Positions 2,156 through 27,017 of a DNA stretch of 64,000 nucleotides are shown piece by piece. Where the stretch lies: positions 1-64,000 of the IMG/VR virus record IMGVR_UViG_3300020536_000010; one strand, given 5' to 3'. Made by a program: the position numbers and the translations under genes. The number at the start of each line of letters is the position of its first letter. Positions within the stretch are counted from its first letter, which is position 1. This DNA comes from a virus. The notes beneath the pieces were generated by a model that saw nothing but the letters and a program-made list of their open reading frames with translations, was not told where the DNA came from and did no database searches.

Positions 2156-2224
2156 CGTATTATTCACAAAATGGCATGTGGCTGCAATAACAACTGCCCA
2201 TGCAAGCTTCCTGAGCCTAAGTAG
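2153..2224 (+). CDS. Cys-rich 23-aa peptide
   Basis: The product carries CGCNNNCPC, i.e. C-x-C-x3-C-x-C, between a basic N-terminus and a KLPEPK tail. The start at 2153 lies exactly 6 nt after TATAAT, like other leaderless genes here; an in-frame ATG at 2171 would give a 17-aa form. Four cysteines in nine residues suggest a metal-binding (metallothionein-like) or redox mini-protein. Its last 8 bp overlap the convergent methyltransferase gene. It may be real or chance; the promoter spacing is the main support. Confidence 0.45.
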   Translation: MRIIHKMACGCNNNCPCKLPEPK

Positions 2225-3530
2225 CCTTTCTCATTCTGATATAGGTAATAACAGAGTACTTGGTTCCTTCTTCAATCTTTGATATGCTATATTCATAGCC
2301 CTTTACTGAAGGCAAAATAACAACTTCATTTGCATTTGGCTTATAGGTCAAATTAAGCTCTGGGAACTCCAGGGCACCTCCTGAATAATCATCATTCAAA
2401 AAGTACATTATGGTAATAGCGTTTGTATCTTGATTACTACTTAATGGAAAAGATGTGCCTGTGCTATATTTCATAAGCCCTATTTGGTCATGAAGTTTTT
2501 GTGGCAATGCATTTGATTCAATATAGTCTTTTTCAACAAATCCCATAAATCCAGCAGTAACCAAAGCAATTCTTTCCTCAAATGTAACCGAAAAGTCGTT
2601 TGGATCCTTAAATTCTTGGGGGTATGGGAATGACATAGTCTGAACATAGCTTCCAGATATCATTTCCATATTCCACTCAGCCATTCCAGCATAAGTCATT
2701 TGCTCAACGTAAGGAATTAGTTGTTCGTATCCTGGTATAACATTCTTATATACAACTATTCCAGGTGCTAGATCTTCTTTTTCAATTGTTGGTGTATATG
2801 CCTGCTCTGTATTACTCATTTCTTTTCCTTCCAAATTTTTGGCTTTTCTTATACGCTCTTTTGCAATCCTGACTTGATCTTCTGACACGTCATTATAAAT
2901 AAAGTTTCTATTTAGGTTTATACAGGCGTGTGCCACCGATCCAGTACCACCCATTATATCAGCAACCGTGTCCCCTTCTTCGGAAAAGTGGCTAACTATA
3001 ATATTACAAAAATCTAGTGGAGTTGAATCGCCTGTATGGCCCTCTATGTTAATTAATTCTGCATCTAGCTGCCAAGGAATATCAATTATCATTTTTTCAA
3101 GTTCTTTGAATTTTGGACTTCCTTTGCTAAAATGCAAAAAATATACTTGAGTTTTATTATGTTTGATTTTGCTACGCTCATTATTGTTTGGCATATTGCC
3201 GTATTCCCAAATAATTGGGTGATGTGGCAATAGACTGGTTTCTTTAATTACAGAACTTATAAAATAATACAGCAGTGGTTGTGAAAGTATTCCTATAAGA
3301 ATAGAACCAGTGGGTTTTAAAGCATGCTCCATATGCTTCATAACCTTTACTAGGCGGTCAAGATACTCTTCCTGACTTCCATTAGCCATTTGTTGTTCAT
3401 AATTTCCATATTCTCCAACAGGAGCCTCACGTCCACTATTTAGTGTGCCATAATACGGCGGTAGTGTAAAAAATAAATCCACAGACTCTTTTTCTAAAAA
3501 AATCTCTGTAGCATCCTTACAATAAAACAC
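2217..3530 (-). CDS. DNA methyltransferase fused to a degenerate 2OG oxygenase domain
   Basis: Residues 1-235 look like a beta-class DNA amino-methyltransferase (N6-adenine or N4-cytosine). The catalytic motif TLPPYY (22-27) comes first and the AdoMet-binding motif DIMGGTGS (191-198) comes later, as is known for that class. DIM replaces the more usual DPF. Residues about 250-437 match the oxygenase family that begins LAPGIV, but aligned with the intact 11146 protein both ligands of HxD become S364 and N366 and the distal His becomes Y414. All three iron ligands are therefore lost, while the YFLND-GG---FP frame and K424 remain. The GTG start abuts the stop of the zinc-ribbon gene, implying coupling. 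An in-frame ATG at 2819 with AAGGA could yield the C-terminal half alone. Confidence 0.8.
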   Translation of the reverse strand: MFYCKDATEIFLEKESVDLFFTLPPYYGTLNSGREAPVGEYGNYEQQMANGSQEEYLDRLVKVMKHMEHALKPTGSILIGILSQPLLYYFISSVIKETSLLPHHPIIWEYGNMPNNNERSKIKHNKTQVYFLHFSKGSPKFKELEKMIIDIPWQLDAELINIEGHTGDSTPLDFCNIIVSHFSEEGDTVADIMGGTGSVAHACINLNRNFIYNDVSEDQVRIAKERIRKAKNLEGKEMSNTEQAYTPTIEKEDLAPGIVVYKNVIPGYEQLIPYVEQMTYAGMAEWNMEMISGSYVQTMSFPYPQEFKDPNDFSVTFEERIALVTAGFMGFVEKDYIESNALPQKLHDQIGLMKYSTGTSFPLSSNQDTNAITIMYFLNDDYSGGALEFPELNLTYKPNANEVVILPSVKGYEYSISKIEEGTKYSVITYIRMRKAT

Positions 3531-3728
3531 TTACCATTTTCCTATCGGGCACTGAGCTTGAACAAGTGTAGTCTTAAGCTTCATAAAACATCCACATTTC
3601 CTGCACTTAACAAGTCTTTTATTAAACCATGGGCATGTATTGCATATGGCTAGGCGGGATTCAATAAGTTCTTTGTCAGATCTAGGTTGGTTTGGATCAA
3701 ACAAATCAAAGAAGGTTACGTCTCCCAC
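3531..3728 (-). CDS. Zinc-ribbon-like mini-protein (65 aa)
   Basis: Contains C-x2-CPWF, then C-x2-CGCFM and a C-terminal CPIGKW, the pattern of a compact zinc-binding fold. It is clearly paralogous to the 78-aa protein at 10910-11146 (both share KCGCFM, the TT/TK-L spacing and the CP-GKW end). In both places the gene directly precedes an oxygenase of the LAPGIV type, so the pair probably works together. The GTG start at 3728 is chosen because TATAAT lies 7 nt upstream. Role unknown; a partner or adaptor of the oxygenase is inference. Confidence 0.75.
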   Translation of the reverse strand: MGDVTFFDLFDPNQPRSDKELIESRLAICNTCPWFNKRLVKCRKCGCFMKLKTTLVQAQCPIGKW

Positions 3729-3843: not shown

Positions 3844-4083
3844 TTAATTTAAAACCCTATTCATTATTTTACTGTATATAGATTTTTCTAGAGCTAAAAG
3901 GTCTATGTCGTTTTTGGCAGCGAACTTAATTACCTCTTCTTTTGCCAAATCTGCCAAATCCTCACGCATATATTCCAATCGCTCGTAAAAATTTTCTAAA
4001 TATTTTTCTTCAATATGTGGGCCATCACAATCCCAGCTGCTAACGCAAAATGGGCATAAATACTTTCCGTCATTAAGTCTCAT
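3844..4083 (-). CDS. Small CPFC-containing protein of unknown function (79 aa)
   Basis: An N-terminal CPFC (about residues 10-13) and a nearby Cys19 suggest a partial zinc-knuckle or redox pair. The remainder is acidic and helical, with Glu/Leu-rich heptad-like spacing (ENFYERLEYMREDLADLAKE). It overlaps the end of the upstream hydroxylase gene by 11 nt, so it is the third gene of the minus-strand unit read from 5306. No family is recognised. Confidence 0.6.
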   Translation of the reverse strand: MRLNDGKYLCPFCVSSWDCDGPHIEEKYLENFYERLEYMREDLADLAKEEVIKFAAKNDIDLLALEKSIYSKIMNRVLN

Positions 4084-4669
4084 CTAAGAACCTTATTCCT
4101 TGTAGATATTCTTCTGGAAGCACATCCAACAAAAGATGAATCCTATGATCTTTTCCGTTATTTCTTACACTATGATAATTTATATTATTAAGTTCATACA
4201 ATTTACCTACTTCAAGGTTTCTTGCTTCGGATCCCGCACTAAATATTACATGCTCATTAGTTTTGATTGGAATATGAAATCTTCTAGCGGTATATAAAAC
4301 ATCTGACCTATCCTTATGTGTACGAATTCTGCCTCCTGGTTTTAAGCTAATCAGCTCCGAACGGATTAATTTACCGCCTACAAGCTGTTCTAGCTTATTT
4401 ACCAAATTCTGATATTCCGCTTTTGCATACTCGTTTACAAATTTTCTGCTAGTTATACAGTCTATTGGAGAACCGATTCCATGAGCATAGTCTAAGGATG
4501 TTAGCTCAATTGCAAAGGTATCCTTGTGAGTAGGATGAGTTTCTTGTCTAGTAGTATTTAGTAACCACTCTTCGTAATAAGACAAAATTTCTTTTTTTAT
4601 ATTAGATATTGAGACCTCACCAAATTCCATAAAATTCCAATTATCACGTTTGTTTTTTAAGGTACTCAT
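4073..4669 (-). CDS. Aspartyl/asparaginyl beta-hydroxylase-like 2OG oxygenase
   Basis: 198 residues with a single beta-helix oxygenase core. H118-x-D120 (RTHKD), distal H166 (NYHSV) and R176 (DHRIHLLLDV) fit the iron and 2OG ligands of the aspartyl/asparaginyl hydroxylase family, which differs from the prolyl-hydroxylase type of the other paralogues. The ATG at 4669 is preferred to an upstream TTG because GGAGG lies just before it. It overlaps the sulfotransferase-like gene by 26 nt and the next gene by 11 nt, so the three are one operon. The substrate is unknown; a protein or small metabolite is possible. Confidence 0.75.
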   Translation of the reverse strand: MSTLKNKRDNWNFMEFGEVSISNIKKEILSYYEEWLLNTTRQETHPTHKDTFAIELTSLDYAHGIGSPIDCITSRKFVNEYAKAEYQNLVNKLEQLVGGKLIRSELISLKPGGRIRTHKDRSDVLYTARRFHIPIKTNEHVIFSAGSEARNLEVGKLYELNNINYHSVRNNGKDHRIHLLLDVLPEEYLQGIRFLDET

Positions 4670-5306
4670 ACGCCTCCAGATCAAACGAATTTAATTCTGT
4701 TATCAAGTTATTATACTTGCTTCTTAACCTATCCTTAATAGGTCTAGACTGATTTATTTTATTACCGACTATTTTAACACCTAGAATATCACTAATTTTA
4801 TCATATCTATTAGTATCATCAAAATCTATTAATATTGTTTTATTTTTTTCTATAGTTTTTGAAAAAGATAAAATATCTGTATCGTAGTTTTTTACGAACC
4901 AACAACTTTCTGCTCTATATAATAGGTTTGATATATTATCATTATATTTTTCTATATCTATTTCACCAGTTAAAAATTTTGAATTAATATTTACAAAGTT
5001 TTCTATTTTTCCAGTATCTATATACATTTCAATTAATTCGGAAAATGTTAAATGTGGATAATGTCCAAGATGATAACTAATATAGCTAAATGTTAAGTCT
5101 ACTGGATTTCTAAATATTGCAAAATTAACGTCTGTATCTTTTATTGGAGTAGTTGCAAAATGACCACTGACAATATCATATTCAGAAAAGTTATTTGGAA
5201 GTTTACGGTTATGTCTGGAAAAAATATTACCAGGCAGACTATGAACTGCAAATTCTCTTATAAATATACCACTAGTTCTGGGTATGTGCAAATGATAAAC
5301 AGACAT
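4644..5306 (-). CDS. Sulfotransferase-like protein
   Basis: The N-terminus HIPRTSG (7-13) matches the 5'-phosphosulfate loop of PAPS-dependent sulfotransferases (typical form HIPKTGGT). GHF (48-50) and FRNPVDLTFSYISY (65-78) match the 3'-phosphate-binding segment (typical R-D/N-P). Such enzymes move sulfate from PAPS to carbohydrate or other hydroxyls. At 220 aa it is near the minimal length of the family. Ser12 replaces the second glycine of the typical loop, so activity is uncertain. It leads the minus-strand operon with a -10-like TACAAT 7 nt before its ATG. A role in glycan or small-molecule modification is inference. Confidence 0.65.
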   Translation of the reverse strand: MSVYHLHIPRTSGIFIREFAVHSLPGNIFSRHNRKLPNNFSEYDIVSGHFATTPIKDTDVNFAIFRNPVDLTFSYISYHLGHYPHLTFSELIEMYIDTGKIENFVNINSKFLTGEIDIEKYNDNISNLLYRAESCWFVKNYDTDILSFSKTIEKNKTILIDFDDTNRYDKISDILGVKIVGNKINQSRPIKDRLRSKYNNLITELNSFDLEAYEYLKKQT

Positions 5307-5319
5307 ACTATATATTGTA
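5306..5319 (-). promoter_or_regulatory. Leaderless-type promoter of the sulfotransferase-like gene
   Basis: TACAAT on the minus strand (5319-5314), 7 nt, ATG at 5306. It lies back to back with the plus-strand -10 at 5340-5345. Confidence 0.45.
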
Positions 5320-5339
5320 CCAAAATTAAAAAAAGCCCA

Positions 5340-5357
5340 TATAATAATCTTATTATG
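5340..5357 (+). promoter_or_regulatory. Candidate promoter of the small membrane protein gene
   Basis: TATAAT (5340-5345) lies 9 nt before the ATG at 5355, with no Shine-Dalgarno, so the message would be leaderless or nearly so. Confidence 0.4.
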
Positions 5358-5594
5358 TCAATTGAATCATGGATCGGCATTATAGTCGGAATTTCAACAA
5401 TAATTACCTCAACTGGTCTAGGAGTTCGCTGGCTCGTAAGGCATTATTTTGCAGAAATTAAATCTGAGCTTAAGCCCAATAGTGGATCAAGCATTAAAGA
5501 CCAGGTAACAAGACTTGAAGACAGAACAGAAAAGCTTGAAGAGAAGCTAGATAAGCTATATGATACTCTTTTAGACCATATAGCTCGTAAATAA
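5355..5594 (+). CDS. Small membrane protein with coiled coil (holin-like candidate)
   Basis: 79 residues. One hydrophobic segment (about 6-29) is followed by a charged linker and a coiled-coil-like tail (about 48-75, RLEDRTEKLEEKLDKLYDTL). This layout, one transmembrane helix plus a cytoplasmic coiled coil, is seen in many small phage membrane proteins, including holin-type proteins. The start at 5355 is chosen because the hydrophobic stretch then begins near residue 6, whereas a longer frame upstream would overlap the divergent promoter. It is far from the lysins at 11.7-12.9 kb, so holin is only one option. Confidence 0.6.
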   Translation: MSIESWIGIIVGISTIITSTGLGVRWLVRHYFAEIKSELKPNSGSSIKDQVTRLEDRTEKLEEKLDKLYDTLLDHIARK

Positions 5595-6367: not shown

Positions 6368-7087
6368 ATGTCTATTAGCAAAAGCATGGATTTTCCATCA
6401 AGCAAAAAAACCAACTATGCCAAATTAGCACAACAGGTGCAGCAGCCAGAAAATGCTGTTTCTTATATTCCAGTTCCAGGTCCGCCAGGGCCAAAAGGCG
6501 ATCCAGGCTCAGCAGGTGTTCGTGGAGATAAAGGTGATCGTGGAGAAAAGGGTGATCGTGGAGAAAAGGGAGAACCAGGTAAAAATGGTAAAGATGGAAA
6601 AACCTACCTTCCAGTTTATGAGCAAGATGTTGGTTGGGCAAGATATACAAATTCTAAAGATTTAATGTTTAAGCTTGGGGCAGATGAAGGAGAAGATGGC
6701 TGGGTAACAGTATTTGTCGAAGCTTCAAAAACGAAAAATGAAGACTTTTTGCCAAGAGATACTGGAAGCCTTTATAATTCAGAAGCCAGAAAGATAATGC
6801 TTAAATCATTAAAGGTTGGATCTCAGGTAACTGTAGCCTACACCTTTTCAGTAGAAACATTTTCGAATAATACTGAGCTTTGGATTAGAACATATCTTCC
6901 AGCATCTGATAAGGCCATAAGCACCCTAGTTGGAACCCTAAAATATCAATTTGAATATGAAATGTCAATTGTTCAAAAATTTTATATAGAAAGCGAACAA
7001 AGTAGGTCTGGGGGAGCAATTCCACAAATTAGAACAGACCTTAATGCAATAGCAAAACTACACTCAATTGAGATTTCTGTAGCTTAG
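6368..7087 (+). CDS. Collagen-like tail fibre protein
   Basis: 239 residues. After a Gln-rich N-terminal segment, residues 38-79 form 14 uninterrupted Gly-X-Y triplets rich in GDR, GEK and GEP. A globular C-terminal domain follows (about 80-239). Collagen-like triplets form trimeric rods, and phage fibres often use them as shafts. Only the early triplets carry proline in X or Y. AGGAGA precedes the chosen ATG by 4-5 nt. The region encodes many prolyl-hydroxylase-like proteins, so hydroxylation of this shaft is an attractive but untested idea. Probably a receptor-binding or side fibre. Confidence 0.75.
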   Translation: MSISKSMDFPSSKKTNYAKLAQQVQQPENAVSYIPVPGPPGPKGDPGSAGVRGDKGDRGEKGDRGEKGEPGKNGKDGKTYLPVYEQDVGWARYTNSKDLMFKLGADEGEDGWVTVFVEASKTKNEDFLPRDTGSLYNSEARKIMLKSLKVGSQVTVAYTFSVETFSNNTELWIRTYLPASDKAISTLVGTLKYQFEYEMSIVQKFYIESEQSRSGGAIPQIRTDLNAIAKLHSIEISVA

Positions 7088-9480: not shown

Positions 9481-10668
9481 ATGGTAAATGCATTTGGTTA
9501 CTATGCATCTGCAAAGGGAATGGTTTTGGTTCCAAACCTTTCTGAACTTACATCGGCTGCAGCCATCTCCGAATTAGAGTCTGAAGGCTTAAACTATTCT
9601 CTGGGTGCTGATGTAGATACTACAAATGCAGCCTTAGATAACCTAGTTGCAGCACAAGATCCAGCTGCAAATACCCTGGTTGATTATGAAACTGTAGTTC
9701 AATTTAGTCTTTACAATCTTGTTTCAGTGCCACCGTTCTTCCCGCCATTCTTCCCATTTTTCCCATTCTTTCCAAGTTTCCCATCAACACCATCAGTTTC
9801 TGTTTCAGCAACAGCAATTAGCGATACACAAATTAACGTAAGTTGGTCATTTACAAACTTTACAGCACAATCTTTTCAAATAACAAGAACTGGTGCCCCA
9901 CCATCTCCAAATGTATATCCGCTTGTAAATTCAACCGATACGACCTTTACAAATCTAGGTCTTACATGTAATTCAACATACACATATGACATTATATTTT
10001 ATAGCGGTCTAGATGGAACAGGAACACAGCTAAGCGGATCTGCAACAGCAACAACCTCAGCTTGTGCAGCTATATTTGCAATTACTAGCACATCATCAGG
10101 CCCAACAAGTATTACATATTCATGGGCGAATCCTCCAGCAGGAACCACCTCTTATAGTGTATTCTATGCAACTGAGGATGTCCCTAGTACGCCAGTCAGT
10201 ACAACATCAACAACCTATACTTTTGAAAGTCTAACCCCAAACACTACTTATCAGGTTTATACACAAGCTAGAAATTCAGGTGGCACACTATTGGCAACGG
10301 CATCTGCTTCTGTTTCAACACAACCAGTTTCATCACCATTCTTCCCTCCTTTCTTCCCACCCAGCTTCCCATTCTTCCCACCATTCTTCCCACCGTCATT
10401 CCCGTCATTCCCAGACTTTCCACCCAGCTTCCCACCAGAATTTGGATCAACAACCTATTATGGATGTTGTGGAGATGCAACTTCAGTAACTGGCACATAT
10501 GCTAGCCTAAGTGCTGCAACAACTGCAATGGAACAATTCTGTGCTACTGAAACAATGACTCCTTTAGTTAGTGGACCTAGCACATCGCCAATTTCTTGTT
10601 TGTGTGGTGGTCTCCCAGAGCCATACCCAGGACAGTGTTTCTGTAGTGGAGGAGTATGGATATGCTAA
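9481..10668 (+). CDS. PASTA / fibronectin-III adhesin with Phe-Phe-Pro repeats
   Basis: Residues 16-79 fit a PASTA domain (VPNLSELTSAAAISELESEG, then AAQDPAANTLV), a fold known to bind peptidoglycan fragments or beta-lactams. Residues 84-101 and 285-320 are runs of FFP/FPP units. Between them lie two fibronectin-III-like domains (SWSFTNF at about 121 and SYSWANPPAGT at about 215). The last 75 residues hold about ten cysteines, including CLCGG and CFCSGG, and look like a disulfide-bonded tip. AGGAGG precedes the ATG. This is a likely cell-wall-binding virion adhesin; the FFP segments are highly unusual. Confidence 0.75.
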   Translation: MVNAFGYYASAKGMVLVPNLSELTSAAAISELESEGLNYSLGADVDTTNAALDNLVAAQDPAANTLVDYETVVQFSLYNLVSVPPFFPPFFPFFPFFPSFPSTPSVSVSATAISDTQINVSWSFTNFTAQSFQITRTGAPPSPNVYPLVNSTDTTFTNLGLTCNSTYTYDIIFYSGLDGTGTQLSGSATATTSACAAIFAITSTSSGPTSITYSWANPPAGTTSYSVFYATEDVPSTPVSTTSTTYTFESLTPNTTYQVYTQARNSGGTLLATASASVSTQPVSSPFFPPFFPPSFPFFPPFFPPSFPSFPDFPPSFPPEFGSTTYYGCCGDATSVTGTYASLSAATTAMEQFCATETMTPLVSGPSTSPISCLCGGLPEPYPGQCFCSGGVWIC

Positions 10669-10692: not shown

Positions 10693-10908
10693 ATGACAGA
10701 CGCTGAAGCATTAATAAAAAGATTTGCATTTGTAGTGGATGGAGATGTTATAGGAGTTATCCATATTCCAAACACCGCTCCAAATTATGAAAGACTTTGG
10801 GCTGGACTAAGCTCTAACCCAATAGTTGTAGAATCAACTATTGATCCAGACATTAATTATGGCTGGTCCTATGACGGAGAAACTTTTACAGCACCAGAAA
10901 GTATCTAA
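10693..10908 (+). CDS. Small protein of unknown function (71 aa)
   Basis: An acidic 71-residue protein with FAFVVDGDVIGVIHIPN near the N-terminus and a closing NYGWSYDGETFTAPES. The form resembles small phage proteins that describe a virion-associated value-plus-sequence fold, but no family can be named. AAGGA precedes the ATG, and 1 nt separates its stop from the zinc-ribbon gene start, so both belong to one unit. Confidence 0.55.
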   Translation: MTDAEALIKRFAFVVDGDVIGVIHIPNTAPNYERLWAGLSSNPIVVESTIDPDINYGWSYDGETFTAPESI

Positions 10909-10909
10909 T

Positions 10910-11146
10910 ATGAGTAAGATATCTCCATGGCAACAATGGAAACAAAATTTAGGAGAAACTCGTCCTTGGGACCTTATAAATCCTCAAACTCAATGGGCAA
11001 CAGAAGAGGTCTCAACAAACAGGTTTGATATCTGTAAGTCTTGTCCAGAATTAATTAAGCCAACATCTCAATGTAAAAAATGCGGATGCTTTATGACTGC
11101 AAAAACAAAGCTAGCTTTGGCAACCTGTCCATTAGGTAAATGGTAA
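10910..11146 (+). CDS. Zinc-ribbon-like mini-protein (78 aa)
   Basis: The N-terminus SPWQQWK leads to C-x2-C (ICKSC), C-x2-CGCFM and CPLGKW. It is the paralogue of the 65-aa protein at 3531-3728 and, like it, is followed directly by an oxygenase gene beginning ELAPGIV. The start at 10910 follows the previous stop by one base. The six cysteines would form one compact zinc site. The conserved pairing suggests it acts with the oxygenase, perhaps as adaptor; that is inference. Confidence 0.75.
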   Translation: MSKISPWQQWKQNLGETRPWDLINPQTQWATEEVSTNRFDICKSCPELIKPTSQCKKCGCFMTAKTKLALATCPLGKW

Positions 11147-11742
11147 TGAATAAAAAAGAGCTTGCCCCTGGAATTGTTCTTTATAAAGATATTTTTAATG
11201 GATATCAAACTTTAATTTCAGATATAGAAAATGCTGTAGATTCAAAGATTACTAGTTGGAGCCAGGCATCAGTAGTAGAGAAAAATTTTGATGGCATTAA
11301 CACAGAATCAAGGGATACCCTTAGTCTTATAGTTCCACACCTTAATAATTTGTCACCAAATTTATCAATACCGCCAAACTCTTTTAACTATAATCTCAGT
11401 AAAATATTTTTTAAAGTTTTTGATCCATTTGAAAGAGATTACATGTTTATGTATAATGTTTGGGCACCAACACACGACCAATACAGTATATTAAAATATG
11501 GAGTTGGCCAAAAATTTATAAATCATATTGATGATTGCCAAGATTATCACCGTAGAATTTCTACTGTTTATTATGTTAATGACGATTATGTTGGCGGAGA
11601 GATTGAGTTTCCAAGATTTAACATATCATATAAACCAAAAGCAAATGAGCTATTAATATTCCCATCAACATATGTATATAATCATTCTGTGAACAGAGTA
11701 ATAGAGGGTACTCGCTATTCTATTGTTAGTTGGCTAAAGTAA
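11146..11742 (+). CDS. 2OG-Fe(II) oxygenase, LAPGIV type
   Basis: 198 residues beginning MNKKELAPGIV. Iron ligands H127-x-D129 (INHID) and H180 (YNHSV) and the 2OG-binding R190 (GTRYSIV) are all present, with YYVNDDYVGGEIEFP between. It is the intact relative of the dead domain fused to the methyltransferase at 2217-3530. The start at 11146 overlaps the zinc-ribbon stop (TAATG) and has AGGT at a good distance; an ATG 6 nt upstream is the alternative. The 3' end overlaps the convergent lysin gene by 17 bp. Substrate unknown. Confidence 0.88.
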   Translation: MNKKELAPGIVLYKDIFNGYQTLISDIENAVDSKITSWSQASVVEKNFDGINTESRDTLSLIVPHLNNLSPNLSIPPNSFNYNLSKIFFKVFDPFERDYMFMYNVWAPTHDQYSILKYGVGQKFINHIDDCQDYHRRISTVYYVNDDYVGGEIEFPRFNISYKPKANELLIFPSTYVYNHSVNRVIEGTRYSIVSWLK

Positions 11743-19576: not shown

Positions 19577-20401
19577 ATGGCAGTAGGAAAAAGACCTGGT
19601 AGAAGGTCACAGGCATCAAACGACTTTCTAGAGCCAAAGGCACCAACAAGCGTATCTGCTACTAACGTTGGAACTGGGAGGGCATTTAATGATGGTGCTG
19701 CCACAGTTACTTTTTCTTTACCTGGTGATTCTCCAGCAGCTACTTCTTATACAGTAACAGCTACTGCTTCTGGTCAAACAACCAGGACTGCTAGCGGAGC
19801 TACATCACCATTAACAGTAACAGGTCTTGTTGGTGGAGTAACCTATACAGTTAGCGTTACTGCAACTAATAATGCTGGAACATCTGCCGCTTCTTCTTCA
19901 ACCACTGTTGCCATTACTACAGTACCAGGAGCACCAGCTGCCCCGTCAGTTGCTTCAACTGTTATAAATCAAGACTCTATTTCTTGGTCTGCACCAAACA
20001 CTGGTGGAAGTGCAATTACTGGATACCGTTGGGAAAGTAGCGACAATAAGTCAAACAACGTTGCTTCTAACGTTACATCCGCTACAGTAACACAAGAAGG
20101 TGGAACTTCTCAGACATATAAGGTTCGTGCAAGCAATGCTAATGGAGACGGTGCATTTTCTCCTAATTCATCTAGCGTTACTACGTTTAGTCCTTTCTTC
20201 CCGCCATTCTTCCCATTCTTCCCGCCATTCTTCCCGCCGTTTTTCCCATTCTTCCCATTCTTTCCACCATTCTTCCCATTCTTCCCATTCTTCCCATTCT
20301 TCCCACCATATTTCCCATCGTTTGGACCATTTTTCCCACCATTCTTCCCACCATTCTTCCCAAGCTTCCCAGGTGGAGCTGGAGGGTCTAAGTTCTTCTA
20401 A
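19577..20401 (+). CDS. Fibronectin-III protein with long Phe-Phe-Pro repeat tail
   Basis: Residues about 20-205 form two fibronectin-III-like domains (SYTVTATASG, SVTATNNAGTSA; then SISWSAPNTGGSAITGYRW, YKVRASNANGDG). Residues about 206-268 are an almost pure alternation of FFPP and FFPF units, ending GGAGGSKFF. The same kind of repeat is in the 9481 adhesin. The plus strand here is a near-pure pyrimidine tract, mostly TTC and CC(A/G). AAGGAGA precedes the ATG. Such hydrophobic proline repeats are unlike known fibre shafts; they could pack as a rod, bind membrane or bind hydrophobic surface layers. Confidence 0.7.
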   Translation: MAVGKRPGRRSQASNDFLEPKAPTSVSATNVGTGRAFNDGAATVTFSLPGDSPAATSYTVTATASGQTTRTASGATSPLTVTGLVGGVTYTVSVTATNNAGTSAASSSTTVAITTVPGAPAAPSVASTVINQDSISWSAPNTGGSAITGYRWESSDNKSNNVASNVTSATVTQEGGTSQTYKVRASNANGDGAFSPNSSSVTTFSPFFPPFFPFFPPFFPPFFPFFPFFPPFFPFFPFFPFFPPYFPSFGPFFPPFFPPFFPSFPGGAGGSKFF

Positions 20402-20420: not shown

Positions 20421-20446
20421 GCCCAGAGATGTCGTCTCTGGGCTTT
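20421..20446 (+). terminator. Intrinsic terminator at the end of the fibre region
   Basis: Perfect 9-bp stem GCCCAGAGA (20421-20429) and TCTCTGGGC (20435-20443) with a 5-nt loop and a short T-run. A promoter follows immediately. Confidence 0.8.
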
Positions 20447-20447
20447 G

Positions 20448-20465
20448 TGCTATAATTTAGTTATG
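20448..20465 (+). promoter_or_regulatory. Leaderless-type promoter of the oxygenase operon
   Basis: Extended -10 TGCTATAAT (20448-20456), 6 nt, ATG at 20463. Its upstream part lies inside the terminator hairpin, so no classical -35 is available. Confidence 0.7.
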
Positions 20466-21200
20466 ACAAATAATTGGCTAACAAAAGATAGATCAGAAAC
20501 AGATTCAAATAGAATGCCAGAAAGATTTACACAGGCTGGAATTTTAGTTACTAATCCAGCATTGGGCATTAATATATACAACCAGGCAATCGATGAAAAA
20601 ACTTGTGACTATATTATTGAAACTTTAGAAAATAACCTTAATGGGCAAACAAAATATTCTTGGCAGGGTGCAAAAGTAACTGAGGCAGACACTGTTCTTG
20701 AAGAGGCTCGAAAGTGCTTAGATTTTAAAGTAAGTTCAAATAATCTTGGGCCAAGAGATAACCATAATTCAAGCCTATATGACATGCACGAAATTGCTTT
20801 TCGTTCAATAAAGCCAAACGTTGATGACTATGGAATGTATTGGGGTGTTGGGGTAAATTTTTTTGAAGCATTTAATTTTGTCAAATATGATGGACCAGGA
20901 ACACACTTCAAGATTCATGCTGATCATGGACCAGCATATGTTACAACCGTATCTGTAGTGGCATATGTTAATGATGACTATGAAGGCGGAGAGCTTTACT
21001 TTCCACGGTTTAATCTAAAGCTAAAGCCAAAAAGGGGAGATGTCATGGTTTTCCCATCAACATATATTTATGAGCATGCATCTAACGATATGATTAACGG
21101 AACAAAGTATTCTATCGTAATTATGACTGACTACAATAATCGTGGTGGATTAAGAAACTTTAACTACCGTCAAGAAGATATGAATAAAATATATTATTAG
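20463..21200 (+). CDS. 2OG-Fe(II) oxygenase (245 aa)
   Basis: First gene of the oxygenase operon. Iron ligands H152-x-D154 (KIHAD) and H205 (YEHAS); K215 (GTKYSIV) takes the 2OG carboxylate position, as is known for prolyl 4-hydroxylases. The AYVNDDYEGGELYFPRFNL core is typical of the set. The ATG at 20463 is preferred over an upstream TTG because it lies 6 nt after TATAAT. It is most like the next gene (both have Y-NDDYEGGEL and GTKYSIV), suggesting tandem duplication. Substrate unknown. Confidence 0.88.
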   Translation: MTNNWLTKDRSETDSNRMPERFTQAGILVTNPALGINIYNQAIDEKTCDYIIETLENNLNGQTKYSWQGAKVTEADTVLEEARKCLDFKVSSNNLGPRDNHNSSLYDMHEIAFRSIKPNVDDYGMYWGVGVNFFEAFNFVKYDGPGTHFKIHADHGPAYVTTVSVVAYVNDDYEGGELYFPRFNLKLKPKRGDVMVFPSTYIYEHASNDMINGTKYSIVIMTDYNNRGGLRNFNYRQEDMNKIYY

Positions 21201-21207
21201 GAAAATT

Positions 21208-21912
21208 ATGAGTGCACAAGAAGATTTACAAAAAAGAATAGAAGATTTTTATAAAATTGATGAAATTACTTGGTCATCAATAGATGATCTAGGAAGCGGA
21301 ATTTTTTTATTTAGGAATGTCCTGCCAACCTCAATGAACATTATTGAAAGGCTAGAGTCAGTTTTGCAAGACCCCTCTAATCAATATAAATATGCAGAAG
21401 CAATGGTTGGCTATGGAATGAAAATCCCAGAATATAGAGATTGCTATGATTTTAAGTATAAAAAGACTGACATTCAACACGACAAAAGTGAAGCATCTAT
21501 AAAGCTTCAACAGCTATGGGATGAGGTTTATTTTAGGCAGTTGCAAGCAGTAAAATACTATTGCAAGGTTCACAATATTGGAGAGCTTAGATATTGGGAG
21601 GCAATGAATTATGTAAAGTATGGTCCAGGACAGCACTTTCAAGAGCATTCAGACAATGGGTTTTCTTATAACTGTGTAGTTTCTTTGGTAGCATATCCAA
21701 ATGATGATTATGAAGGCGGAGAGCTATTTTTTAGGCTCCAAAACTTAAATATTAAACCAAAGGCTGGAGACTTATTTGTATTTCCTTCAAACTTTATGTA
21801 TCCACATAGAGCTATGCCAGTTACTAGTGGGACAAAGTATTCTATAGTTACAATGCTAGATTATTCGGACAAATATCATAGACCAGATTTTTATCAGGAG
21901 ACTGGGAATTAA
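21208..21912 (+). CDS. 2OG-Fe(II) oxygenase (234 aa)
   Basis: Ligands H147-x-D149 (QEHSD), H200 (YPHRA) and K210 (GTKYSIV). A long N-terminal region (1-125) is rich in Glu/Lys/Tyr and may shape the substrate pocket. GGAAAA lies before the ATG and the stop overlaps the next start (TAATG). It is close in sequence around the active site to the 20463 protein, but the N-termini differ widely, which suggests different targets. Confidence 0.87.
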   Translation: MSAQEDLQKRIEDFYKIDEITWSSIDDLGSGIFLFRNVLPTSMNIIERLESVLQDPSNQYKYAEAMVGYGMKIPEYRDCYDFKYKKTDIQHDKSEASIKLQQLWDEVYFRQLQAVKYYCKVHNIGELRYWEAMNYVKYGPGQHFQEHSDNGFSYNCVVSLVAYPNDDYEGGELFFRLQNLNIKPKAGDLFVFPSNFMYPHRAMPVTSGTKYSIVTMLDYSDKYHRPDFYQETGN

Positions 21913-23343: not shown

Positions 23344-23358
23344 AAATAGGAGTTGTTT

Positions 23359-24027
23359 ATGGAAAATTTAGCAAATAATAGTGTGGTTGACAGAGTCTCT
23401 ATAACTCCGTCTGGATTTTTTGGATCTTCCTCAGAAAATATTGTAACATTAGAAGATTTTATGACTGAATATGAAATAACTAGATTAAATGATTTCATAA
23501 GGTCTAATGAAAATTGGGATATAACTGAAACTCACTATAATGAAAATGGAACGGTTATTTATGATTCTGGATATTGGGCTAATCGTGTAGCGACTTATCC
23601 AACAATTCAAAAAACAAACCCAGAAATACCTGAAATTATAGAAGGCATGGTTGCAAGATTAAAGATTGAAGTAGACAAGTTTTTTGGTGTAGATGCTTTG
23701 CCAACTAGCCCAGCCATGGTTAGATGGCTTCCTGGCCAATTTCAAATGCCGCATGCAGATAAAGAATTGCACACTGGTCCAGACGCTGGAAAGCCCAATG
23801 ATTTTCCATACTATGACATTGCTGGACTTTTTTATGTTAATGATGACTATGAGGGGGGAGAGCTATACTTTCCAAACCAAGGAATTCAGTTTAAACCTAA
23901 AAGGGGAGCTGCCTACTTCTTCCCAGGAGATATGAACTATATACATGGTGTAACAGAGATAAAGTCTGGAATCAGGTATACAGTTCCATTCTTTTGGACG
24001 ATACTATCTCATAAGGGCAATTCTTAG
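23359..24027 (+). CDS. 2OG-Fe(II) oxygenase (222 aa)
   Basis: Ligands H132-x-D134 (MPHAD), H196 (YIHGV) and R206 (GIRYTVP). The frame LFYVNDDYEGGELYFPNQGIQFKPKRG is intact. The ATG at 23359 has AGGAG 6 nt upstream and is preferred to a TTG two codons before. The N-terminal 110 residues include DFMTEYEITRLNDFI, an alpha-helical cap common in prolyl-hydroxylase-like enzymes. Substrate unknown. Confidence 0.88.
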   Translation: MENLANNSVVDRVSITPSGFFGSSSENIVTLEDFMTEYEITRLNDFIRSNENWDITETHYNENGTVIYDSGYWANRVATYPTIQKTNPEIPEIIEGMVARLKIEVDKFFGVDALPTSPAMVRWLPGQFQMPHADKELHTGPDAGKPNDFPYYDIAGLFYVNDDYEGGELYFPNQGIQFKPKRGAAYFFPGDMNYIHGVTEIKSGIRYTVPFFWTILSHKGNS

Positions 24028-24059: not shown

Positions 24060-24818
24060 ATGGCAAATTTAAACAATATGAATAGGTTAACTGACGACAT
24101 TGTTATCTATGAAAATTTTATATCATCAGAAGAGTGTTCTAAAATTATTAAGCTTTTAGATAAGGTGGCAGAAAAAGGCACTATGACTTGGATGCCAATA
24201 TCTTTTTATGAGTCGTATTCTTCAGTTTTGCCACAAGACGATGATCCAGAAATTGAAGAAGAGGGGTTGCCAGGCAATATATTTTCTAGCATTAAAGATG
24301 GGTTTATTCAGGCTGTGGCATCCGTACATAGCATAGATCCAAAAACTGTTGTGCAAATTGGGTATCACACTCAAAAGTGGGAGCCAGGGGCATATGCAAG
24401 AATACACTCAGACAATACAGATGAACATGGAAATACTGGCCCATTTGCAAGAAGTAGATATGCCGCATTTCTTTATTTAAACGATGATTTTTCTGGAGGA
24501 CTATTAAAATTTCCAAAGCAAAATATAGAGATTTCTCCAAAAGTGGGAATGTTGGCTGCTTTTGACGGGGGCTTTAACAATATGCACGAAGTTACACTAA
24601 TTGAGTCTGGAATCAGATATACAATAGGATCTTTTTGGGATGACCGTGAGGAAGATGCATATCCACAAGAAGTTAGAGATGCCTGGGCAGATGAAATGAA
24701 ACAGATTAGAGAAAAGCAAGAAATCGAAAGAAAAGAATGGCAAGATTTGCTTAAAGACGGGTATAAAATAGATATGGATGGCAATAAATATAAGGTGGGG
24801 CAAGACGACAATGATTAA
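24060..24818 (+). CDS. 2OG-Fe(II) oxygenase with charged C-terminal extension (252 aa)
   Basis: Ligands H116-x-D118 (RIHSD), H176 (NMHEV) and R186 (GIRYTIG). After the catalytic domain a charged helical tail (about 193-240, rich in Glu, Lys and Gln) is unique among the paralogues and could be a coiled-coil contact. The N-terminal DDIVIYENFISSEECSKII is a typical entry helix of the family. It overlaps the next gene by 8 nt. Confidence 0.87.
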   Translation: MANLNNMNRLTDDIVIYENFISSEECSKIIKLLDKVAEKGTMTWMPISFYESYSSVLPQDDDPEIEEEGLPGNIFSSIKDGFIQAVASVHSIDPKTVVQIGYHTQKWEPGAYARIHSDNTDEHGNTGPFARSRYAAFLYLNDDFSGGLLKFPKQNIEISPKVGMLAAFDGGFNNMHEVTLIESGIRYTIGSFWDDREEDAYPQEVRDAWADEMKQIREKQEIERKEWQDLLKDGYKIDMDGNKYKVGQDDND

Positions 24819-25470
24819 TCAGCTAAAAGAAATTTTAAAGAAAAATAATATATCATTTGAAGAAATTACGGATGAGCTAGTATCTATTGAAAATTTTTTA
24901 ACAGATAATGACTTAGAGTTTCTTTTTAATCAAATAAATTCCGCTTCACAGGAAGATTGGGAAGTGGAATATTTAGCTAACCTAAAAAGCTTTTGTTTAG
25001 AAAAATTTGGTAGAGATGATGTAGAAAATCTTGTGGCTGAAGGAAAGTTTGAAATAACACAAAATTGGTCTGACAAAAATCTAAATGTAAGTGAACACCC
25101 AGAATATCGTATTTTTTATAAAAGGCTTGCCTCTCTTGTAACAGAAGCAGACGAAACACTGATGCTTAGTGGTCTTGCTACAATACAAAGAATGCAGCCA
25201 GGGGTAGAGCTAAAATCACATACAGATCAGCATACAGATCCATCAATACGTTATGCTGCAATTATTTATATTAATGATGATTATGAAAATGGTGAGCTGT
25301 TCTTTAGAAATCTTGGAATAAAGCTTAAGCCAAAACCAAAAACTCTTCTTATTTTTCCAGGAAATGAGCAATATGAGCACGGGGTTGACTTTGTTTCAGA
25401 AGGTCCAATAAGATATGTCTTAGTCGGATTTATTAAGGAAAAGGGTTTTTACGAAAGGAATAAATTCTAA
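24811..25470 (+). CDS. 2OG-Fe(II) oxygenase (219 aa)
   Basis: Ligands H137-x-D139 (KSHTD), H190 (YEHGV) and R201 (PIRYVLVGF). The core reads YINDDYENGELFF, with Asn for the usual first Gly of GGE. The start at 24811 overlaps the previous gene; no strong Shine-Dalgarno is seen, so coupling is likely. Its N-terminal 110 residues are more acidic and helical than in the neighbours. Confidence 0.87.
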   Translation: MINQLKEILKKNNISFEEITDELVSIENFLTDNDLEFLFNQINSASQEDWEVEYLANLKSFCLEKFGRDDVENLVAEGKFEITQNWSDKNLNVSEHPEYRIFYKRLASLVTEADETLMLSGLATIQRMQPGVELKSHTDQHTDPSIRYAAIIYINDDYENGELFFRNLGIKLKPKPKTLLIFPGNEQYEHGVDFVSEGPIRYVLVGFIKEKGFYERNKF

Positions 25471-25471
25471 A

Positions 25472-26176
25472 ATGAAAAAAAATATTTTAAATGATATGGT
25501 TTATTATTATGAGGATGCCGTTTTAAACTTTGACAAAGTTATGGAAACGATTAAAGAGCTAGACATAATTGGCCCATCCGATGCCGTTCCTTTATGGCAA
25601 GACTGGACTTCATCAAATGATAAAACATTTATATATGGACAAACCCAAACATTTGATATTAATCAAATTAATAAAATGGATGAGCCATATAAGAGTAAAT
25701 TAGCATTTATATATAACAACATCATGGAATCGTTCTACGAAGTCTCAAAAGATTATGCAAATTCTATAGGAGATTTAGATGAGCCAAGACTTTTCCCAGT
25801 ATTTAATATTAAAAAGTATAATACTGGTTCTGCAATGGGTGCACACTATGACCAATTAGATGGGGATAAAACATTGCGGTATTCTTTGGTGATGTATCTT
25901 AATGATGATTGTGATGGTGGAGAAATTTCATTTAAGCTATCTGAATATGAAGATCACAATAAAGTTGCAAGTCCAGACTTAGATTATGCTGTTGCTGTAG
26001 AAAAAAATCAAATAGATTTTGGGGTAAAGCCAAGTGCTGGAAGTATTATAATTTTCCCATCTTCTGCACCATATTATCATATTGCTCACACAGTAAAATC
26101 TGGTTTTAAATATATGGTTCCAAGTCACTGGATTCATAATGATATGAGTATGAGAGATGGCAGAAACAGCATATAA
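25472..26176 (+). CDS. 2OG-Fe(II) oxygenase (234 aa)
   Basis: Ligands H125-x-D127 (GAHYD), H203 (YYHIA) and K213 (GFKYMVP). A 40-residue insertion (about 155-190) stands between the GGEISF strand and the final PSAG-IIIFPS segment, longer than in the neighbours. It starts 2 nt after the previous stop and overlaps the next gene by 20 nt. Function within the operon unknown. Confidence 0.86.
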   Translation: MKKNILNDMVYYYEDAVLNFDKVMETIKELDIIGPSDAVPLWQDWTSSNDKTFIYGQTQTFDINQINKMDEPYKSKLAFIYNNIMESFYEVSKDYANSIGDLDEPRLFPVFNIKKYNTGSAMGAHYDQLDGDKTLRYSLVMYLNDDCDGGEISFKLSEYEDHNKVASPDLDYAVAVEKNQIDFGVKPSAGSIIIFPSSAPYYHIAHTVKSGFKYMVPSHWIHNDMSMRDGRNSI

Positions 26177-27017
26177 TTTTGATATTGAAAAAATACAAGA
26201 TACGGTATGGGTTTTTAAAAAAGCAATTAAAAATCCAGAATCTTTTATAAAATATTTTGAAGAAAATAAAAAATGGAAAGATTGGTATACTCTTGGTAGG
26301 TCAGCCAATGGCACTCTTTTTTCAACAAGTTTTGATACATTTCCAACAGAAGAAGAGTGGAAAAGGAAAAAGCATGAATCACCACATAATGACTTTAAAA
26401 GCCCAGGCTATTATGAAAATAAAATTAATGATTTATTTTATAATACCACAAGGCTATATGTTGAAGAAAACAATTTAGTATTTGATAACTGGATTTATAA
26501 TGGTTGGGGTATAGCAAAGTATATCCCAGATCCACAGGATAATACAGAATATGCTATGTTTCATCATACAGACTTTCAAAGAGAATTGGCCTATAATCCT
26601 GGATCTAAGTTTGCCATTACTGTTGTTTTTTATCTTAATGACAACTATGATGGCGGAGACGTAATGTTTAGGTTTTTAGATGATAATGATATGTCAATAA
26701 TTAAAGAAGACTATTCTTATAAGCCACAGGCTGGAGATATTGTTGTTTTTATGTCTGGCCATCCACATTATCATGGAGTAAAAAAAGTCAGCAATGGCGA
26801 AAAATATATTATAAGAGCATATTGGAAATATGACTATCTTGGACATCCACTTTGGTTAAAATTGCAAGAAAAATATGGAGAAGATGTTTGGAGACAATTA
26901 GAAAAAGAGCGATTAAGATTTAGTAGAAATACAGATAATATAAAAATGATTAATAATGTTCAGTTTTGGATAGAGTTCGAAGAATATTATAAAAAAGAAC
27001 TGGGATCTTTGGATTAA
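26157..27017 (+). CDS. 2OG-Fe(II) oxygenase (286 aa)
   Basis: The longest of the set. Ligands H137-x-D139 (HHTDF), H206 (HYHGV) and K216 (GEKYIIRAYW). The N-terminal 110 residues carry a lysine- and tryptophan-rich helical domain, and the C-terminal 60 residues (WLKLQEKYGEDVWRQL) add a further helical piece. It overlaps the previous gene by 20 nt and the dehydrogenase by 1 nt (TAATG). Confidence 0.86.
   Translation: MAETAYNFDIEKIQDTVWVFKKAIKNPESFIKYFEENKKWKDWYTLGRSANGTLFSTSFDTFPTEEEWKRKKHESPHNDFKSPGYYENKINDLFYNTTRLYVEENNLVFDNWIYNGWGIAKYIPDPQDNTEYAMFHHTDFQRELAYNPGSKFAITVVFYLNDNYDGGDVMFRFLDDNDMSIIKEDYSYKPQAGDIVVFMSGHPHYHGVKKVSNGEKYIIRAYWKYDYLGHPLWLKLQEKYGEDVWRQLEKERLRFSRNTDNIKMINNVQFWIEFEEYYKKELGSLD

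Follow-up and report, generated by a model that had tools for sequence, protein, structure and literature searches.

Does a phage protein in which a methyltransferase-like domain is followed by a prolyl-hydroxylase fold deprived of its iron ligands still work as an enzyme, or have its two halves been retained for something else? The question is raised by a gene in the window, that is, the whole 64,000-nt stretch of viral DNA analyzed here (positions 1–64,000 of the IMG/VR record IMGVR_UViG_3300020536_000010; the full record has 79,037 bases). The large terminase of this virus is 54–57% identical to terminases of Streptomyces phages, hence an actinobacterial host is likely; the virus probably infects freshwater actinobacteria. 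The features of the locus are listed in Table 1.

Table 1. Coordinates of the fusion gene, its motifs and the related genes in the window.
Feature	Position	Strand	Basis or remark
Fusion gene starting with GTG, 437 aa; N-half methyltransferase-like, C-half a dead prolyl-hydroxylase fold	2217..3530	-	
N-half, residues 1–237, beta-class (N6_N4_Mtase, PF01555) fold	2820..3530	-	PF01555 and Foldseek
C-half, residues 238–437, from internal start M238; prolyl-hydroxylase (DSBH) fold, no metal site	2217..2819	-	
Motif IV TLPPYY	3450..3467	-	Catalytic D/S/N position is L23, codon 3462–3464
Motif I DIMGGTGS (SAM-binding), residues 191–198	2937..2960	-	D and GxG retained
Shine-Dalgarno GGAAGG, 7 nt 5′ of the internal ATG	2827..2832	-	Duplex -9.1 kcal/mol
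S364 and N366, in place of the HxD iron ligands	2433..2441	-	Alignment
Former distal His iron ligand, now Y414	2289..2291	-	Alignment
2OG C5-carboxylate anchor position, K424	2259..2261	-	Alignment
Zinc-ribbon gene (DUF6171, phrog_13558)	3531..3728	-	Same frame as the fusion, only its TAA stop between
Second zinc-ribbon gene	10841..11146	+	Overlaps the intact oxygenase paralogue
Intact C-half paralogue (HxD...H, R), 2OG-FeII_Oxy_3	11140..11742	+	PF13640, 3.7e-16

The region 2217–3530 on the minus strand is a single open frame of 437 codons counted from a GTG. The frame is identical in four further assemblies with the whole gene and in two more with its 3′ part; as several assemblies agree on it, an assembly error or a sequencing slip in the window is ruled out. 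Hence the fusion of a methyltransferase-like half with a half of the 2OG-oxygenase fold, proposed in a preliminary description of this DNA, holds. On the upstream side, the TAA at 3531–3533 alone parts the zinc-ribbon and fusion frames, and its read-through would yield a three-domain protein.

A full-length alignment of the two-domain protein with single-domain relatives misplaced the C-termini of methylases onto the oxygenase half, so the halves were modeled separately. The C-half is a paralogue of the protein encoded at 11140–11742 (34% identity over residues 243–435, E = 2.4e-30). Its AlphaFold2 model, built from 26 sequences, has a mean pLDDT of 89.4, and the best matches among solved structures are the viral vCPH, an algal P4H, a Bacillus P4H and PHD2, with Z of about 16–17, so that the retention of the oxygenase fold, also proposed earlier, is upheld. 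Compared to P4H-type 2OG-Fe(II) oxygenases (PF13640; PHD2, vCPH 5c5t, Bacillus P4H), the C-half is alike in the DSBH fold throughout the domain and in the basic residue anchoring 2OG, but differs from them in the replacement of all three iron ligands and in a PF13640 score of 24.3 bits, below the gathering cut-off of 27. The anchoring residue is K424, aligned on the 2OG-binding arginine; most relatives have R in this position, and K is also present in some relatives with an intact triad, e.g., L065.

In the alignment with the intact paralogue, S364, N366, and Y414 fall on its H, D, and H, which bears out the reported loss of all iron ligands down to the residue numbers. Alternative iron ligands or another 2-His site are excluded, as the C-half contains one histidine and no cysteines. 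The H, D, H triad is present in 82 of the 90 aligned oxygenases; the eight sequences lacking it are those of the window, of six fused relatives (one with the same sequence as the window), and of the stand-alone protein from contig L007. In the latter, N and P occupy the first two ligand positions, and, except for Y in place of the distal His, the replacements are not conserved across the dead clade. The dead sequences are monophyletic (support 100/100) in the maximum-likelihood tree of 61 oxygenases, with 2.27 changes per column on the stem and 0.13–0.34 on the tips. The dN/dS values are 0.15–0.18 among the window, L003, and L004 (0.17 for the window compared to L004, with 59 synonymous and 49 nonsynonymous changes), and about 0.4 in comparison with L007. 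The long stem, the short tips and purifying selection fit a change of role rather than decay. According to the model, the C-half is a prolyl-hydroxylase fold lacking the metal site, and the tree indicates a single origin of this state, with the iron ligands lost once.

The N-half matches PF01555 with E = 1.5e-21 (77.8 bits, compared to the cut-off of 26.7), and the best PDB matches of its model identified by Foldseek are the beta-class N4-cytosine and N6-adenine enzymes 8s9m, 1boo, and CcrM (E = 1.7e-14 to 8s9m and 8.2e-14 to M.PvuII). It resembles the beta-class amino-methyltransferases (PF01555; M.PvuII, Adineta vaga N4CMT, CcrM) in the motif order IV...X...I, the SAM motif I, and the fold, while differing from them in having LPPY in place of [DSN]PP[YFW], in a shorter region preceding motif X, and in being fused to another domain. 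Motif I lies C-terminal to motif IV, with its D and GxG present. Thus, out of the two beta-class motifs named in the preliminary description, DIMGGTGS is indeed intact, whereas TLPPYY, although present, is not a normal catalytic motif, having Leu for D/S/N.

Residue L23 aligns on the D/S/N preceding PPY both in phage methylases and in the solved N4C enzyme 8s9m. Among 112 aligned sequences this position is occupied by D in 80, S in 22, N in two, a gap in six, L in one (the window), and H in one (L118); in other words, D, S, or N occupies it in 104 out of 105 other phage methylases with an aligned motif IV residue, and only the sister L118, the relative nearest to the fusion clade (34% identity), departs from this. 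A second relative, L198, has HPPYF at motif IV. Scanning 2.9 million viral contigs with two patterns yielded no further methylase with FTLPPYYG, and the matches to FT[L/x]PPYYG outside the clade were chance frames, except for three methylases with C or S. The stretch from W108 to motif X is shorter in the N-half than in its relatives. Motif X was also considered as a second lost motif and dropped, as the canonical methylases most closely related to the N-half belong to the SPPYW/GHSGFP type, which lacks the KP lysine. The model of the N-half has pLDDT of 79 and is weak at residues 29–48, just past motif IV, and 120–123; the weakness at 29–48 means that the active-site geometry cannot be judged.

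Given Leu in place of the catalytic D/S/N, the N-half is probably not a normal amino-methyltransferase; by its motifs, it is likely to be inactive as such and may be another pseudoenzyme that has kept its SAM motif intact. The earlier assignment as an ordinary DNA methyltransferase is therefore not sustained, motif IV having Leu here and His in the nearest relatives. Still, Leu in motif IV does not prove inactivity, as phage ParB-type methylases with CPPYY exist, and we know of no activity assay on an LPPY motif IV. The main rival explanation, which was also the initial one, is that the DNA methyltransferase is active and carries a non-catalytic domain for targeting, the N-half guarding phage DNA from restriction and the dead domain binding DNA or the zinc-ribbon partner. 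It agrees with the PF01555 score far over the cut-off, the intact motif I, the active N4C/N6A enzymes as the nearest solved structures, and dN/dS of about 0.13–0.17 in the N-half, calculated on few changes; the CPPYY methylases also point to some tolerance at the motif IV residue. Moreover, the N-half is the sole PF01555 protein of this genome, there being no second match to this family in the 79-kb record, which may itself be a fragment. However, the residue contacting the target amino group is Leu here and His in the sister lineage, against D, S, or N in the other phage methylases, and the stretch from W108 to motif X is shorter than in relatives; we consider this explanation rather unlikely.

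The loss of catalytic signatures in both halves could also be expected of a decaying pseudogene, in which the catalytic residues of both domains were lost as unneeded. This is highly improbable: decay is rejected on dN/dS, which is about 0.15 in both halves and 0.25 between the N-half relatives L197 and L198, and the full copies contain no stop or frameshift.

The fusion is seen in only six contigs, 90–100% identical, which are close relatives and may include one lake population sampled repeatedly; with contigs so closely related, the fusion may be recent, with products that are independent of each other. None of 50,697 phage records covers 80% of the query, and no such fusion was found in GTDB genomes by a scan reaching close relatives only; the IMG/VR scans relied on short patterns and mainly recovered close relatives. 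A literature search outside subscription journals yielded neither a published description of such a fusion nor a paper on DUF6171. Within this scope the initial impression that no such fusion was known stands, and the protein is a novel variant of known folds.

The gene order varies between relatives. In the window and in contigs L001–L006 the methyltransferase and the dead oxygenase form one gene, and wherever a contig extends far enough, this gene follows the zinc ribbon. In L007 (IMGVR_UViG_3300031951_012505) the zinc-ribbon gene is followed by its TAA, two bases, and the ATG of the dead oxygenase, with no methyltransferase. In L198, the methyltransferase-like gene stands alone and ends eight bases before the zinc-ribbon gene, with no oxygenase adjoining; this locus shares with the window a neighborhood containing the small membrane-protein gene (5160–5594 in the window). 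As each half occurs alone beside the same zinc-ribbon gene in related phages, the fused arrangement is derived. Its simplest history is an insertion of the methyltransferase, because the zinc ribbon is directly upstream of the oxygenase ORF, often overlapping it, in 67 out of 80 viral loci; alternatively, the methyltransferase may have been deleted in L007. The dead state is shared by the unfused L007 protein, hence the iron ligands were probably lost before the fusion arose.

The intact paralogue at 11140–11742 likewise is directly behind a zinc-ribbon gene. With the pairs of a DUF6171 zinc ribbon and a 2OG oxygenase from aquatic phages, the C-half shares the oxygenase lineage and the position behind a DUF6171 gene, but the pair in question contains a dead oxygenase and is split by a methyltransferase-like domain. 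In four loci (L061, L062, L064, L032), zinc-ribbon genes flank the oxygenase, one upstream and one downstream, and in a cyanophage zinc-ribbon neighborhood the annotation lists hypothetical proteins only.

The ATG of M238 corresponds to the start codon in L007, and the C-half counted from M238 corresponds to the whole stand-alone protein. The Shine-Dalgarno sequence of M238 ranks among the strongest 4% for 267 internal in-frame ATGs, and it equals or surpasses those of roughly three quarters of the 40 gene starts compared in the window; the one at the GTG start is also good (-7.7). Comparison of the window with L004 reveals six differences in 711 positions before the M238 ATG (0.8%) and 108 in 603 from the ATG on (18%; p = 1e-31), with the first difference past the boundary 11 nt after the start of the ATG. 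This step in divergence suggests that the C-half has been exchanged as a unit with its edge at the internal start, and together with the strong internal Shine-Dalgarno sequence makes a separate C-terminal product likely. Hence the gene is likely to have two products, the 437-aa fusion and a 200-aa C-terminal protein starting from M238.

The strong Shine-Dalgarno sequence and the allele boundary at M238 could be interpreted further, as two independent proteins in one frame, where most of the C-half is made from M238 and the fusion arises incidentally, through loss of a stop between two overlapping genes, all the more as the halves occur singly in relatives and the start of the L007 protein matches M238. 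We consider this unlikely, since the frame is free of stops in six contigs, including alleles with C-halves 18% apart, and since the good Shine-Dalgarno sequence of the GTG start implies that the fusion should be made.

Overall, selection has kept both halves, and this suggests that two former enzymes now act by binding something. The explanation we tentatively prefer, with a probability slightly below even, is that two enzyme folds have been fused, both off their ordinary chemistry, and now form a non-catalytic binding or regulatory unit. 2OG oxygenases paired with zinc ribbons are common in these phages, and the C-half descends from them, having lost its iron ligands once; at a later step a methyltransferase-like gene, which retains the SAM-binding motif I but has the catalytic D/S/N changed to Leu, would have been placed, in frame, exactly between the stop of the zinc-ribbon gene and the start of the oxygenase. 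The retained grooves suggest binding: the old substrate groove of the dead hydroxylase domain could hold a peptide or a partner, either the zinc-ribbon protein, which by gene order would be the likeliest partner, or a target of the active paralogues, whereas the N-half could contribute a SAM- and/or DNA-binding module, perhaps with nucleic acid as its ligand. Competition with the active paralogues or their regulation also is possible, given some ten further genes of the 2OG-oxygenase or Asp-hydroxylase type and a collagen-like protein. A more specific version, possible but held with low confidence, is a phage double pseudoenzyme, that is, a scaffold of a SAM fold and a prolyl-hydroxylase fold with an internally started C-terminal isoform and a zinc-ribbon partner, which captures or senses proteins (or SAM/2OG) during infection.

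Analogies can be drawn for both halves. The N-terminus of the vaccinia virus protein C16 may resemble the PHD2 fold. The N-terminal region of C16 binds PHD2, a prolyl hydroxylase, and inhibits it (PMC7693908); as C16 comes from a eukaryotic virus and has no methyltransferase domain, it is only an analogy to the fusion protein. METTL14, the inactive partner of METTL3, has a methyltransferase fold with EPPL in place of DPPW and a degenerate active site (PMC5023411), providing a precedent for keeping this fold without a functional active site; again, this is only an analogy, since the active site of METTL14 is reported to be degenerate throughout, whereas motif I of the N-half is intact, and since the 79-kb record yielded no second PF01555 match that might serve as an active partner.

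Many phage 2OG oxygenases have no known target, and a catalysis-free clade under selection offers a handle on what the fold binds. The module comprised of the zinc ribbon, the methyltransferase-like protein and the dead oxygenase is reshuffled one whole gene at a time, and its members can become fused. Should neither half be active, the automatic label “DNA methyltransferase” is wrong for this clade.

The window also contains approximately ten more genes of the 2OG-oxygenase or Asp/Asn-hydroxylase type, at 1539–2135, 4073–4684, 11140–11742, 20445–21200, 21208–21912, 23353–24027, 24060–24818, 24778–25470, 25472–26176, and 26157–27017; the PF13640-like members of this set that were aligned have kept H, D, and H. 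At 6368–7087, 9481–10668, and 19577–20401 lie genes for a collagen-like G-x-y protein and for proteins carrying long PPFFPPFFP repeats rich in proline, and the related phages L197 and L198 have PTPTP or PTPAP repeats instead. The collagen-like and proline-rich repeat proteins are plausible targets of prolyl-hydroxylase-type enzymes. A variable region, at 3844–5306, is a cassette comprised of a sulfotransferase-like gene, an Asp/Asn hydroxylase, and a small Cys-containing gene. The genes of this cassette are absent in L007 and divergent in L001 and L004, and the L198 neighborhood holds a glycosyltransferase, so the region looks like a hot spot for modification genes.
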